Origin: an uncultured Neglectibacter sp.
GTDB lineage: Bacteria > Bacillota > Clostridia > Oscillospirales > Acutalibacteraceae
Assembly (NCBI GenBank): GCA_946554335.1
Contig: CAMNSA010000017.1
Coordinates: 1 to 49,538, forward strand
Direction: 5' to 3'
Length of the DNA: 49,538 nucleotides
Made by a program: the position numbers and the translations under genes. Positions within the stretch are counted from its first letter, which is position 1; every line of letters begins with the position of its first letter. Below, one piece after another: positions 4,537 to 8,310 of the stretch. Below the pieces are notes generated by a model. It saw only the letters and a list, made by a program, of their open reading frames with translations. It searched no databases and was not told the DNA's origin.

Positions 4537-5130
4537 TTACCCTTCGTCCCCGATCAAAATTCCCATCGCGGAAAGCAGATTGACCGCCTCCGGCAGAGAG
4601 AACCTGGCCTTTGCCGCCCGGTTGTTCTCCAGAGAGAAAAGATACCCCTCGGCTCCTCGAAAATCCGCCGAACGCATATCGTTATGAGAAAATCCGGTTT
4701 CCTTTAAAACGGTGTTTCGGAAATCCGTCTCTAAAAGGCAGCAGTCCTCAAAGTAAGAGCCTGTGAAATCACAGCCGGAAAAGTCCTGTCTCTTCAGGTC
4801 CAGCCCGAAAAACACGCAGTGCAGAACATTCGAGCTCCGGATCGCGTCAAAGGGGAGAAATCCCATCTCCCGCTTTTTGGCGTCCAGCAGCTCCGCCCAG
4901 TCGATCCCCAGGAGAGAACAGTCCTCAAACCGGTTGTCCATGGCTTCGATCCCCTTTGGGTGAAGCTCTGAGATTCTGCACCCTGAAAAGCGGCAGCCGG
5001 TAAACCGGCAGCTCTTGAGAACGAGCCCCTGCATTTTACAGTTTTCAAACAGGCAGTCCTCAAATATCGCGCCGGAAAGCTCTTTGCCGATATATTCTTT
5101 CCTGGAAAAGACTTCGCCGATATACTCCAT
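4537..5130 (-). CDS. Pentapeptide-repeat protein
   Basis: A 197-residue protein built largely from A(D/N)Lxx-like pentapeptides, in which every fifth residue is a small or aromatic hydrophobe (for example FEDCLFENCKMQG, FTGCRFSGC, FSGCDFTGSYFEDC, FRNTVLKETGF). Two blocks (about residues 18-55 and 108-160) are separated by a non-repeat segment with an MGFLPFDAIRSS stretch. Such repeats fold into a right-handed quadrilateral beta-helix; some members (Qnr, McbG) mimic DNA and protect gyrase, but most have no known role and nothing here singles out gyrase. The repeats are rich in Cys. The start at 5130 is chosen for the AAGGGAGG ribosome site. It lies 97 bases downstream of the sod-like gene. Confidence 0.82.
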   Translation of the reverse strand: MEYIGEVFSRKEYIGKELSGAIFEDCLFENCKMQGLVLKSCRFTGCRFSGCRISELHPKGIEAMDNRFEDCSLLGIDWAELLDAKKREMGFLPFDAIRSSNVLHCVFFGLDLKRQDFSGCDFTGSYFEDCCLLETDFRNTVLKETGFSHNDMRSADFRGAEGYLFSLENNRAAKARFSLPEAVNLLSAMGILIGDEG

Positions 5131-5227
5131 GCTGTTTCCTCCCTTGAAAAGCCGCCGGGGCTCCCGGCAAAAGCTTAACATAGAGAAAGCAGAATTGCAA
5201 ATCACCTTCTCCCGGCAAAAGGCAGGA

Positions 5228-5731
5228 TCAGCAGCTTTTTTCAATGACGCCGCAGGCGATTTTCCTGCCGGAATTGCCGGAGGGCTGGGTCGTAAAATCG
5301 TCGGGCTTGTCGTGGATGACGACCACCTTACCCAACACCTCATTTGCGGAAAACCGATTGGTCAAAAACAGAGAAAGCGCAAATCCGTCATTTCCAAACA
5401 AAACCGGCAGATCTCCGGCGTGATCGGGATGCTCGCACCCTCTGGGGTTATAGTGCGTCATTGCGCCCGCAAAGGGATCCTCCCCATCGCCTTTGCACTC
5501 GGTTCCTCCATGGATATGAAAGCCGAAAATTCGCCCGCCGCAGGCTCCCGCTTCCTTAGGCAGACCAGAAATTTGAGCCCACACCAGCACGCCCCGGCCC
5601 GTTTGGTAAAACCGAACCATACCGGACAACTCCGGATGCTCTTCCCCGCCTGAAATACGGGCAATAGCCTGAGGCCGGCCGCGTAAAATCGCCGGAAGAT
5701 TCATTCTATTGCTGCAAGACCGTCTGTTCAT
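5228..5731 (-). CDS. Copper/zinc superoxide dismutase family protein
   Basis: A 167-residue protein of the SodC family. The copper ligands are present: HIH (about residues 71-73), the His of THYNP (about 91) and the His of VVIHDKPDD (about 138). The zinc loop HYNPRGCEHPDHAGD supplies three His and one Asp, but is shorter than in the classic enzymes. A Cys just after the HIHGG segment and one near the C-terminus could form the usual disulfide. The role is dismutation of superoxide to peroxide and oxygen. Notably no signal peptide is visible, although bacterial SodC is normally exported. I begin at 5731 because GGGAG lies seven bases upstream; the further ATG at 5749 lacks a ribosome site. Confidence 0.85.
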   Translation of the reverse strand: MNRRSCSNRMNLPAILRGRPQAIARISGGEEHPELSGMVRFYQTGRGVLVWAQISGLPKEAGACGGRIFGFHIHGGTECKGDGEDPFAGAMTHYNPRGCEHPDHAGDLPVLFGNDGFALSLFLTNRFSANEVLGKVVVIHDKPDDFTTQPSGNSGRKIACGVIEKSC

Positions 5732-5846
5732 AAAGCCGCTCCCTACCATTCAGTTTGAGATATTCCAATTCTATGCGGGAAAGCTGCCGGGCGTTCTCCC
5801 ATTCTCTGCTTCGACAGCTTCGCAGCGACTGAAATTTGCGTATTAC

Positions 5847-5885
5847 AAAAGCCCTCGAAAGGAGTTGCGCCTTCCGAGGGCTTTT
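5847..5885. terminator. Bidirectional terminator, possibly the original tRNA-Thr terminator
   Basis: AAAAGCCCTCG (5847-5857) pairs perfectly with CGAGGGCTTTT (5875-5885), with an inner AAGG/CCTT helix. It directly adjoins the tRNA-like sequence at 5888-5898. In minus-strand orientation it would follow the tRNA 3' end, as expected if it terminated the tRNA before an element inserted. Confidence 0.75.
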
Positions 5886-5887
5886 GG

Positions 5888-5898
5888 GGAGCTACTGA
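5888..5898. repeat. Candidate att site, displaced tRNA-Thr 3' end copy
   Basis: GGAGCTACTGA is identical to 7066-7076, which is the 3' acceptor end of the tRNA-Thr gene. The two copies flank the integrase gene and lie 1178 bases apart. Both are preceded by a CTTTT-type terminator tail. Confidence 0.5.
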
Positions 5899-5913
5899 AC
5901 CATTTTTCCTGTT

Positions 5914-6993
5914 GTGGATCAAGCTAAAGCTTTTAGCCGCCGAGATACATCAGCGCTCTCCGCGCCCCGCACAGAAGAAAAGGATCGCCCCACCGCCGAA
6001 GTCAACCAGGCTGTAGATGCAGTACGGGATCAGGATCGAGCCGGTCTTGTGGTTGGGGATAATACCACCGTGGGCGAGTGGGCAAAGATATGGTTTGATA
6101 CCTATAAATCCAGCCTGCGGGACAGCACCAAGCGCATGTACCGCACTGCTTATAATGTACATATTCTCTCTCACCTTGCCACCCTAAAGCTGCGGGATGT
6201 ACGCCCCGTCAATATCCGTAAAGTCATGCAAGCCGTATCAGAGCAATCGGAATCTCTGCAGCACAAGGTATTGATTACCATGCGGCAAATTTTTGCCTCC
6301 GCCAGGCAAAACGGCCTCATACTATCCGATCCTACAGAAGGAATTAAAACAACCCCACATGCTAGGCCAAACCGCAAAGAGTATCTGGATCTGGATGAGC
6401 AAGAAGCCTTAATAGTCTCTTTGGCAGATACAGACCATCGTGCCAGGAGCTTTGTGGGGTTGTGCCTATACTGCGGTTTGCGCCGTGAAGAAGCGCTTGG
6501 ATTACAATGGGGAGATATCCAAGGCGATAAGCTTACAGTCAACCGGTCACTAACCTTTTTAAAAAACAACCAGCCTGACCCAAACCAGGATCTGAAGACA
6601 AAAGCATCTCACCGCACAATCCCAATTCCCAGGCGCTTGCAGGATATCCTAAAGAGTACGCCTCACACTGGAATGTATTTGCTGACTTGTTCAGATGGCA
6701 GCCCCATAACTCAATCCGCATTCCGACGGCTATGGGACAAGGTAACAAAGGTTTCTCCCTGCTATGTTCACCCCCATATGCTCCGTCATACTTACGCTAC
6801 CAACCTCTACCGGGCAGGTATCGATCTAAAAACCGCTCAGTATCTGCTGGGGCACTCCACGATCCAGATGACTGCTAATATTTATACCCACATGGAAAAA
6901 GAAGACGCTGCTACCTCTATCGTACAGTTGGAGCAATACCTTGCAGGCAGCAACCAAACATCCGGAAGTATTGAAAAAGTAGTCAAAAAGTAG
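5914..6993 (+). CDS. Tyrosine recombinase/integrase
   Basis: The catalytic domain carries the full tyrosine-recombinase set: Arg in CGLRREEALGL, a basic residue before the beta-turn (KTKASHRTIPIP), HMLRHTYAT, LLGHSTIQMT and the nucleophile Tyr in IYTHME. A core-binding SAM-like domain (TTVGEWAKIWFDTYKSSLRD onward) precedes it. The N-terminus is unusual: before that domain there are only about 50 polar residues, not the usual arm-binding domain, and the only start is a GTG at 5914 without a recognisable ribosome site, just after a stop inside the repeat at 5888-5898. The enzyme may be N-terminally reduced. It points towards the 3' end of tRNA-Thr, 72 bases away, the usual arrangement for tRNA-targeting elements. 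No other element genes are present. Confidence 0.88.
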   Translation: MDQAKAFSRRDTSALSAPRTEEKDRPTAEVNQAVDAVRDQDRAGLVVGDNTTVGEWAKIWFDTYKSSLRDSTKRMYRTAYNVHILSHLATLKLRDVRPVNIRKVMQAVSEQSESLQHKVLITMRQIFASARQNGLILSDPTEGIKTTPHARPNRKEYLDLDEQEALIVSLADTDHRARSFVGLCLYCGLRREEALGLQWGDIQGDKLTVNRSLTFLKNNQPDPNQDLKTKASHRTIPIPRRLQDILKSTPHTGMYLLTCSDGSPITQSAFRRLWDKVTKVSPCYVHPHMLRHTYATNLYRAGIDLKTAQYLLGHSTIQMTANIYTHMEKEDAATSIVQLEQYLAGSNQTSGSIEKVVKK

Positions 6994-6996
6994 TCA
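6974..6996 (+). repeat. Two overlapping 12-base repeats at the integrase 3' end
   Basis: AAAAAGTAGTCA occurs at 6974-6985 and again at 6985-6996, an 11-base period that spans the integrase stop codon. The place and the helical spacing suit arm-type integrase binding sites; this is inference. Confidence 0.45.
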
Positions 6997-7010
6997 ATAT
7001 GAATTTTTCA

Positions 7011-7065
7011 CAAAAAAAGAACCGCATCGAAAGCCCAAAAACGGCTTTACAGTGCGGTTCTTTTT
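7011..7065. terminator. Bidirectional terminator between integrase and tRNA-Thr
   Basis: AAAGAACCGCA (7016-7026) pairs with TGCGGTTCTTT (7053-7063), with an inner AAAGCC/GGCTTT helix and A/T runs on both sides. It can end both the integrase and the tRNA transcripts. Confidence 0.8.
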
Positions 7066-7140
7066 GGAGCTACTGATGTGACTCGAACACACGACCTGCT
7101 GATTACGAATCAGCTGCTCTACCAACTGAGCTACAGTAGC
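7065..7140 (-). tRNA. tRNA-Thr (anticodon CGT)
   Basis: The minus strand folds into a full cloverleaf: acceptor GCTACTG/CAGTAGC, D arm with AGCTCAGTTGGTAGAGC, anticodon arm GCTGA-TTCGTAA-TCAGC giving anticodon CGT (Thr, codon ACG), T arm GTGTG-TTCGAGT-CACAT, discriminator T and an encoded CCA. The 76-base gene is complete, so any integration event restored it. The 3' end at 7065-7076 doubles as the candidate att site. Confidence 0.95.
7066..7076. repeat. Candidate att site inside the tRNA-Thr 3' end
   Basis: GGAGCTACTGA, identical to 5888-5898, covers part of the CCA end and acceptor stem of the tRNA gene. Confidence 0.5.
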
Positions 7141-7180
7141 AAGGCTGAACAAGGTTTAGCAAGGCTAAGCTACGGGAGCT

Positions 7181-7209
7181 ATTATACTAAAAAATTTTCT
7201 TACAGTCAA
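7181..7209 (-). promoter_or_regulatory. Promoter of tRNA-Thr
   Basis: Minus strand TTGACT (7209-7204), 17-base spacer and perfect TATAAT (7186-7181), about 40 bases before the tRNA 5' end. The near-consensus strength fits a stable-RNA gene. Confidence 0.8.
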
Positions 7210-7242
7210 GGCAAAGTTCCACTTTTCTCTGTTTTGAATCTG

Positions 7243-7251
7243 TGTTACAAT
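7243..7251 (+). promoter_or_regulatory. Extended -10 promoter of the dnaD-like gene
   Basis: TG at 7243-7244 followed by TACAAT (7246-7251) forms an extended -10; the -35 region at 7223-7228 is weak. It is back-to-back with the tRNA promoter and about 64 bases before the dnaD-like start. Confidence 0.4.
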
Positions 7252-7314
7252 AGAAAGAAACTGCGAAAACGATTTTTCGTAAAATAGTCTTCCTGAATTT
7301 CCGGGAAGTAAGGG

Positions 7315-8310
7315 ATGAAAATGATGGGATATCAAATAGATCTGGGCGCGTGGAATTCTGTGTTTGCCGTTCCCTGCGCCCTGGTGGACCGCCATTTACG
7401 ACTGGCGGAAAAGGAGCAGCTTCAGGTGCTGCTTTGGGCGCTGCGCCACGCGGGAGAGGCCTTTGACGAAAAGACCGTCTCCGATGCGCTGCGCCTTCAC
7501 CCTGACACGGTGCTGGACGCGCTGGATTACTGGACGCAAAACGGTCTTCTCAGAAGAAGCGGCGATACCCTTTCCCCCGCTCCCGAAAAGGAAATGAACG
7601 CCCCTGTGATCGTTCAGCCGGAAAAGCAGCCGCCAAAGGAGCCTGTCCTTCCCCCCAGGCAGGACAGAATGGTCCGGCCGGACAGCCTTCATCTGGCAGC
7701 CCGCATGAAGGAGTCGGAGTCCATCCGCTACCTGATGCAGGAGGCTGAGCTCACCCTGGGGAAAACCATCTCCCCCGCTCTCTCCGCGATCTTGGTCTCT
7801 TTGTGCGACGATTACGGCCTTCCCGCGGAGGTGATCGCCATGATCCTGCACTACTGCAAGGATGTGGGAAAAACCGGCACCGCCTACATTGAGTCTGTAG
7901 CGCGTGACTGGGCACAAAGCGGGGTTTTGACGCTGGAGGCAGCCGAGGAGAAGCTGCAGGAATTAAGCGAACGCCGGCTTGCCTGGACAAAGGTTTCCTC
8001 CGCCGCCGGATTGCCGCGGCGCTCCCCCACAAAGAAGGAGGAAGAGGCAGCCTTCCGCTGGATCAGGGAATGGGGTTTTTCCCAGGAAATGATCAGCGCG
8101 GCCTATGAGCGCTGCGCTGATCACACCGGGAAATTCAGCGCAAGCTATCTTAATAAGATTTTAGAGCGCTGGCACAAGCAGGGCTTTACCCAGGTCTCAC
8201 AGGTGGAAGAAGAGGAGCGGCAAAAGCAAAACAAGCAGGATTCCTCCAAAAGCTACGATATTGACGAGCTCAGCCGCCTGAGCTTCTTCGATGTTCCGGA
8301 TAAATTATAA
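7315..8310 (+). CDS. DnaD-domain replication initiation protein
   Basis: A 331-residue protein with an N-terminal winged-helix region (about residues 1-85), a Pro-rich linker (about 90-120), then two DnaD/DnaB_2 modules (about 125-205 and 230-290). The second ends in the FSASYLNKILERWHKQGF stretch, matching the YIxxILxxWxxxGI signature of the family, and the first contains GTAYIESVARDWAQSGV. In Bacillus, DnaD and DnaB recruit the replicative helicase with its loader to the origin or restart sites. The next gene is a DnaC/DnaI-type loader, supporting that role. ATG codons at 7315 and 7321 are both possible; AAGGGA suits the second slightly better. Probably the first gene of a plus-strand operon running to 14325. 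Confidence 0.88.
   Translation: MKMMGYQIDLGAWNSVFAVPCALVDRHLRLAEKEQLQVLLWALRHAGEAFDEKTVSDALRLHPDTVLDALDYWTQNGLLRRSGDTLSPAPEKEMNAPVIVQPEKQPPKEPVLPPRQDRMVRPDSLHLAARMKESESIRYLMQEAELTLGKTISPALSAILVSLCDDYGLPAEVIAMILHYCKDVGKTGTAYIESVARDWAQSGVLTLEAAEEKLQELSERRLAWTKVSSAAGLPRRSPTKKEEEAAFRWIREWGFSQEMISAAYERCADHTGKFSASYLNKILERWHKQGFTQVSQVEEEERQKQNKQDSSKSYDIDELSRLSFFDVPDKL

Follow-up and report, generated by a model that had tools for sequence, protein, structure and literature searches.

Introduction

Faecalibacterium phage Roos (PP479939.1) has been described as an active phage with a homologue of the lambda integrase, and in the portion of the same report drawn on here the integration sites of four phages are placed in intergenic regions, with no mention of tRNA in that text (PMC11792537). 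Prophages can also become grounded (cryptic), a state in which, according to the sections of PMC6379469 used here, lesions in the att sites and the recombinase stop excision and deletions then follow. In Oenococcus, prophage remnants of 5.2-19.5 kb occur at tRNA sites with one att site degenerate, as given in the part of PMC8074189 consulted.

The locus considered here, in a gut bacterium, lies in a window of 49,538 bp, by which the whole stretch of DNA analysed is meant. An earlier note on this DNA had recognised a lone integrase between two copies of a tRNA-Thr 3′ end and had read it as attL-int-attR without cargo, leaving it undecided whether this was a self-standing mobile integrase or the scar of a larger element. 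Comparison with intact relatives indicates that the locus is very probably a scar left when a prophage at tRNA-Thr(CGT), whose integrase was akin to that of Roos, was deleted.

Results

The 11-bp sequence GGAGCTACTGA was found in exactly two copies in the window, at 5888-5898 and 7066-7076, the right copy being the 3′ end of tRNA-Thr(CGT). The tyrosine integrase gene is the sole recognised gene between the copies, which are about 1.2 kb apart, and no structural or packaging genes were found in this interval. Prophage body genes were not seen anywhere in the window, int being the only phage gene there. To the right of tRNA-Thr lies a gene with a DnaB_2 domain, presumably dnaD and called so here for short, while genes for a Cu/Zn superoxide dismutase and a pentapeptide-repeat protein lie to the left of the attL remnant. 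The features of the locus are as follows:

5228-5749, minus strand: Cu/Zn superoxide dismutase gene (sodC), between the pentapeptide-repeat gene and the attL remnant
5847-5885, minus strand: hairpin terminator, read as the original terminator of tRNA-Thr, which the insertion would have displaced
5888-5898, no strand assigned: attL remnant, which retains 11 bp from the tRNA-Thr 3′ end, about one quarter of the relatives' core, an exact repeat of 7066-7076
5899-5985, no strand assigned: filler at the putative deletion joint, 87 bp, origin unexplained, matching nothing convincingly
5986-6993, plus strand: tyrosine integrase gene without its first 24 codons (Pfam Phage_integrase, E 3.1e-28; SAM_3)
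6979-6996, plus strand: arm-type repeat pair GTAGTCAAAAAGTAGTCA at the int end, a position in which it recurs in G008, G020, G027 and Roos
7015-7064, minus strand: putative element-borne terminator behind the tRNA, which can also fold on the plus strand, behind int
7065-7140, minus strand: tRNA-Thr(CGT), intact (ARAGORN and Rfam), its 3′ half belonging to attR

That the repeat arose by chance, with the integrase arriving by another route, is scarcely credible: 11 bp is admittedly short, and the repeats of relatives are four times longer, but only 0.02 matches were expected from shuffles, none of 100 shuffles contained two copies, and the left copy adjoins a terminator, which is where attL sits in the same-genus genomes G008 and G020. 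The repeat was thus confirmed above chance. Both copies are accompanied by hairpin terminators, as had been noted earlier, and both fold strongly, the minus-strand fold of 5846-5890 giving -27.8 kcal/mol (z -6.5) and that of 7014-7064 giving -26.2 kcal/mol (z -6.4), with -22.8 kcal/mol for the plus strand of the latter.

A search of 60 relatives with window positions 5000-8300 returned G008, with 73% identity over window positions 6040-7135, a match that covers the integrase core and nearly the whole tRNA, as well as integrase matches in G020, adjoining tRNA-Val, and in G027, adjoining tRNA-Arg. At the protein level, homologues were present in five of 29 genomes of the genus set at E ≤1e-60, own genome included (G000, G008, G012, G020, and G027), and in five of 398 genomes of the family set at E 1e-90, own genome again included; the family-set matches exclude G008, which may not have been drawn into that set. 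A plasmid search gave 25-35% identity among the matches listed (8 of 5000). Both element ends were located, among the genus-set homologues, for G008 and G020 only. The G008 element occupies the same tRNA-Thr(CGT) (contig C189, 5694-38235) and is bounded by an exact 45-bp repeat of the tRNA 3′ half with its copies 32,541 bp apart, and the G020 element, at tRNA-Val, is bounded by a 48-bp repeat with copies 52,581 bp apart. Both repeats extend, as read from the sequence, to the anticodon loop or slightly beyond it. Beside these homologous integrases tRNA 3′-end repeats are present too and are longer, so that the refuting case named in the earlier note, an 11-base match without counterpart next to homologous integrases, does not apply, and the 11-bp repeat of the window is probably the leftover of a core of about 45 bp rather than a full core. 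The arm pair GTAGTCAAAANGTAGTCA stands at the int end of the intact elements, and a second pair lies 96-97 bp inside the attL core (G008 and G020). Pfam searches with ten frames of the G008 element identified a terminase large subunit, two DNA methylases, a helicase, a Band 7 protein, a helix-turn-helix regulator, and a HicB-like antitoxin, with nothing recognised for three. The putative link to phages comes from the terminase gene of the G008 element and from Roos being a phage, the window having kept int only. In Roos, int is followed by the arm pair, the hairpin, and a tRNA-half-like core, and a variant arm pair lies 93 bp beyond this core. The Roos core (L099, 7065-7112) reads by eye as a tRNA 3′ half, as against the intergenic sites given in the part of PMC11792537 used here.

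Several further members of this integrase group were observed. In G027, a second tRNA-Arg copy was not found in the stretches examined, and contig C5 of this genome (L065, 7926-9587, minus strand) holds a damaged second member of the group, in which the matching pieces are out of one frame, an internal stop is present, and residues 25-48 are matched twice. In G299, which belongs to another genus of the family (L109 and L114), a 55%-identical integrase adjoins tRNA-Thr(CGT), the arm pair and the terminator type again being the same, and no second tRNA copy was found up to the contig end. Directly outside the attL of the G008 element lies another integrase of distant similarity (23-26% identity; L057, 4538-5529, plus strand), which suggests that two elements may stand in tandem at the tRNA-Thr of this genome.

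Loci without the insertion were provided by the same genus. A tRNA-Thr(CGT) beside dnaD was found in nine same-genus genomes besides the window, and the integrase was present there in G008 only, the other eight comparable loci (G007, G012, G013, G015, G016, G019, G021, and G025) showing no integrase, a result that supports insertion at the tRNA 3′ end. These eight loci were judged from frame listings over 0.9-4.5 kb downstream, seven of them also by tblastn, the G012 locus being judged by the frame listing alone (942 bp). Among the other 19 same-genus genomes, the scanned dnaD stretch contained no tRNA-Thr in 15, and G004, G011, G020, and G024 fell outside the scan. In G007 and G019, a pentapeptide gene follows directly after tRNA-Thr. 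The sodC gene was not found at the locus in the stretches of 20 relatives; as far as these stretches indicate, the left flank is not fully conserved. The arrival of sodC on this flank is a matter separate from the element; sodC-like DNA occurs elsewhere in several genomes of the genus.

The same comparison accounts for the two terminators. In G008 and G020 a hairpin lies directly outside attL, in the same place as 5847-5885 in the window, which agrees with the earlier proposal that the left terminator is the tRNA's own, displaced. A second terminator was said to follow the tRNA now, and it is probably element-borne, as the sequence type of 7015-7064 recurs behind the homologous integrases of G008 and G299.

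On its right side the window matches the intact relatives feature for feature, namely in the integrase from codon 25, the arm pair, the terminator, and the tRNA. The integrase aligns with that of G008 from residue 25 onward at 74% identity over 335 residues, the start of homology varying with partner and method within 5983-5995. An N-terminus KKRKDGRYQ[KR]KVTL is common to all five relatives compared (G008, G020, G027, G012, and Roos), whose first 24-25 residues are 76-92% identical to one another and 4-8% identical to the window; beyond these residues, the window is 49-74% identical to the same five. The lone integrase of the earlier note is indeed the only recognised gene between the repeats, but it is incomplete, its first 24 codons having been replaced by unrelated sequence. 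The open frame itself runs from 5914 to 6993 (359 codons), reaching back across the filler to a GTG at 5914. As the G008 integrase has 360 residues, a diverged or frameshifted N-terminus was considered, and it was rejected because the filler aligned no better than shuffles: local alignments of its first 86 bases with five intact start regions, each reaching from 250 bp ahead of the start to 78 bp beyond it, showed no similarity to the integrase starts or to the DNA preceding them (p 0.18-0.73 relative to shuffles). A frame on the reverse strand (5950-6174), which might have been the tail of another gene, was also rejected, as the DNA from 5986 onward aligns with plus-strand integrase DNA and no NCBIfam match was obtained for the frame. 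No convincing match to the filler was found in its own genome, in the prophage stretches compared, or, for the region 5887-6000, in 200 family genomes. Searches of viral contigs gave no matches to the filler, with one exact 22-mer as query, and none to the terminator or integrase DNA patterns.

On the left side, the window lacks, relative to the intact elements, the left arm sites, the int start codon and N-terminus, and most of the attL core, whose anticodon-loop end is gone as well. No arm-like site was found in 5881-6120 at up to six mismatches, and the arm pair GTAGTCAAAAAGTAGTCA occurs as a single copy in the whole assembly, with at most one mismatch allowed. These losses bear on the suggestion that the locus is a minimal element mobile by itself, in which a lone integrase flanked by attL and attR would move nothing but its own unit. 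Although the direct repeats, the single gene, and a catalytic region intact and free of stops would suit such an element, the N-terminus and core are truncated, the left arm sites and start region are gone, the genome has one copy, and the homologous integrases of G008 and G020 ride large elements; we consider it very improbable.

An assembly artefact, in which the cell would carry the full prophage and the contig would misjoin its two ends, was also considered. The genome is a draft of 37 contigs, which would allow for this, but no other position for the 87-bp joint was found in the assembly, nor was a second arm pair, and, with the full-length G008 integrase as query, no other place in the assembly matched residues 1-24. 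A search for the missing prophage body elsewhere in the assembly gave one match to the terminase large subunit, on contig C18, and as this is just 31% identical to that of G008, C18 was rejected as the source of the missing body. An artefact is accordingly also very improbable, if somewhat less so than an autonomous mobile integrase. The C18 gene (L111, 8651-10123, minus strand) probably forms part of another prophage.

Apart from the truncation, no decay of the integrase was seen. Its frame has no stop and no frameshift, and changes at otherwise invariant columns (six of 107) show no unusual excess when set beside those of G008 (5/106), G020 (7/108), G027 (4/105), Roos (19/120), and G012 (35/136). 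This undecayed core leaves a small chance of domestication, in which the fused frame from GTG 5914 would be made and would serve the host. The 359-codon open frame and the invariant columns are in keeping with such a role, yet no ribosome site is visible before GTG 5914, with nothing like AGGAGG close by, while AGGAGG precedes the start of the G008 integrase, and the fused frame was seen in one genome only. A recombinase of this kind serving the host is very doubtful, and it is equally doubtful that the fused frame is expressed and has been kept to act, still, on attR beside the tRNA.

Discussion

The reading preferred here is a prophage that inserted at tRNA-Thr(CGT) and was then lost almost entirely by deletion. 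As judged from the intact relatives, the attP core would have re-supplied the tRNA 3′ half upon insertion, and the incoming phage terminator would have landed behind the tRNA, the original tRNA terminator being pushed out next to attL. A later deletion, reaching from 11 bp inside the attL core to int codon 25, would have removed nearly the whole element and left an 87-bp stretch at the joint. Such a joint is not what a simple two-end deletion would leave behind, and this counts against the locus being a scar, as do the absence of prophage body genes from the window, the integrase core without decay beyond the truncation, and the left flank, which is not fully conserved. The insertion is supported by comparison; the loss of the body we infer from the truncated attL and integrase. 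The absence of stops and of any excess of changes in the integrase core suggests that the loss may be recent.

Integrases that target tRNA genes are expected to cross over at the anticodon-loop end of the core. As this end of the attL core is gone, excision would not be expected. With the core, the arm sites, and the int start and N-terminus missing, the remnant should neither excise nor yield a normal integrase; movement of the scar thus seems unlikely, and tRNA-Thr is the only part expected to work. Among the readings offered earlier, the one upheld is that of a larger element stripped of its cargo, given the large elements of the relatives and the truncated attL and integrase N-terminus of the window. 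A working attL-int-attR does not agree with relatives whose cores measure 45 and 48 bp, lie 32.5 and 52.6 kb apart, and are accompanied by left arm sites, and a self-standing mobile integrase finds no support, both attL and the N-terminus being truncated. A repeat-int-repeat layout may therefore mimic a tiny mobile element, where intact relatives reveal the stranded end of a larger one.

The element of G008 resembles the window in its tRNA, its 74%-identical integrase, its terminator type, and the arm pair at its int end, and differs in its 32.5-kb length, its terminase and regulator genes, its 45-bp repeat, its left arm pair, and its full integrase N-terminus. That of G020 shares a 69%-identical integrase, the arm pair, and integration at a tRNA 3′ end, but it uses tRNA-Val, has a 48-bp repeat 52.6 kb apart, and has kept its left arm pair; it would itself be a phage, going by an IMG/VR record in which a relative of equal identity occurs. 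Roos provides the best phage-protein match, its integrase being 55.7% identical from residue 25, and it has int, arm pair, hairpin, and tRNA-half-like core in the order of the window, although it is a complete phage with arm pairs flanking the core on both sides. Taken together, the comparison yields an att anatomy in which arm pairs flank a 45-48-bp tRNA-half core and the terminator is element-borne, which applies to the Roos-like integrase group within this bacterial family. As in the grounded prophages, in the part of their description used here (PMC6379469), the att site and the recombinase of the window are damaged relative to intact homologues. The Oenococcus remnants, as far as the consulted part of their description goes (PMC8074189), are likewise located at a tRNA with one degenerate att site, although they measure 5.2-19.5 kb as against about 1.2 kb here. 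The locus looks like an ordinary stranded prophage remnant, of a kind already known.
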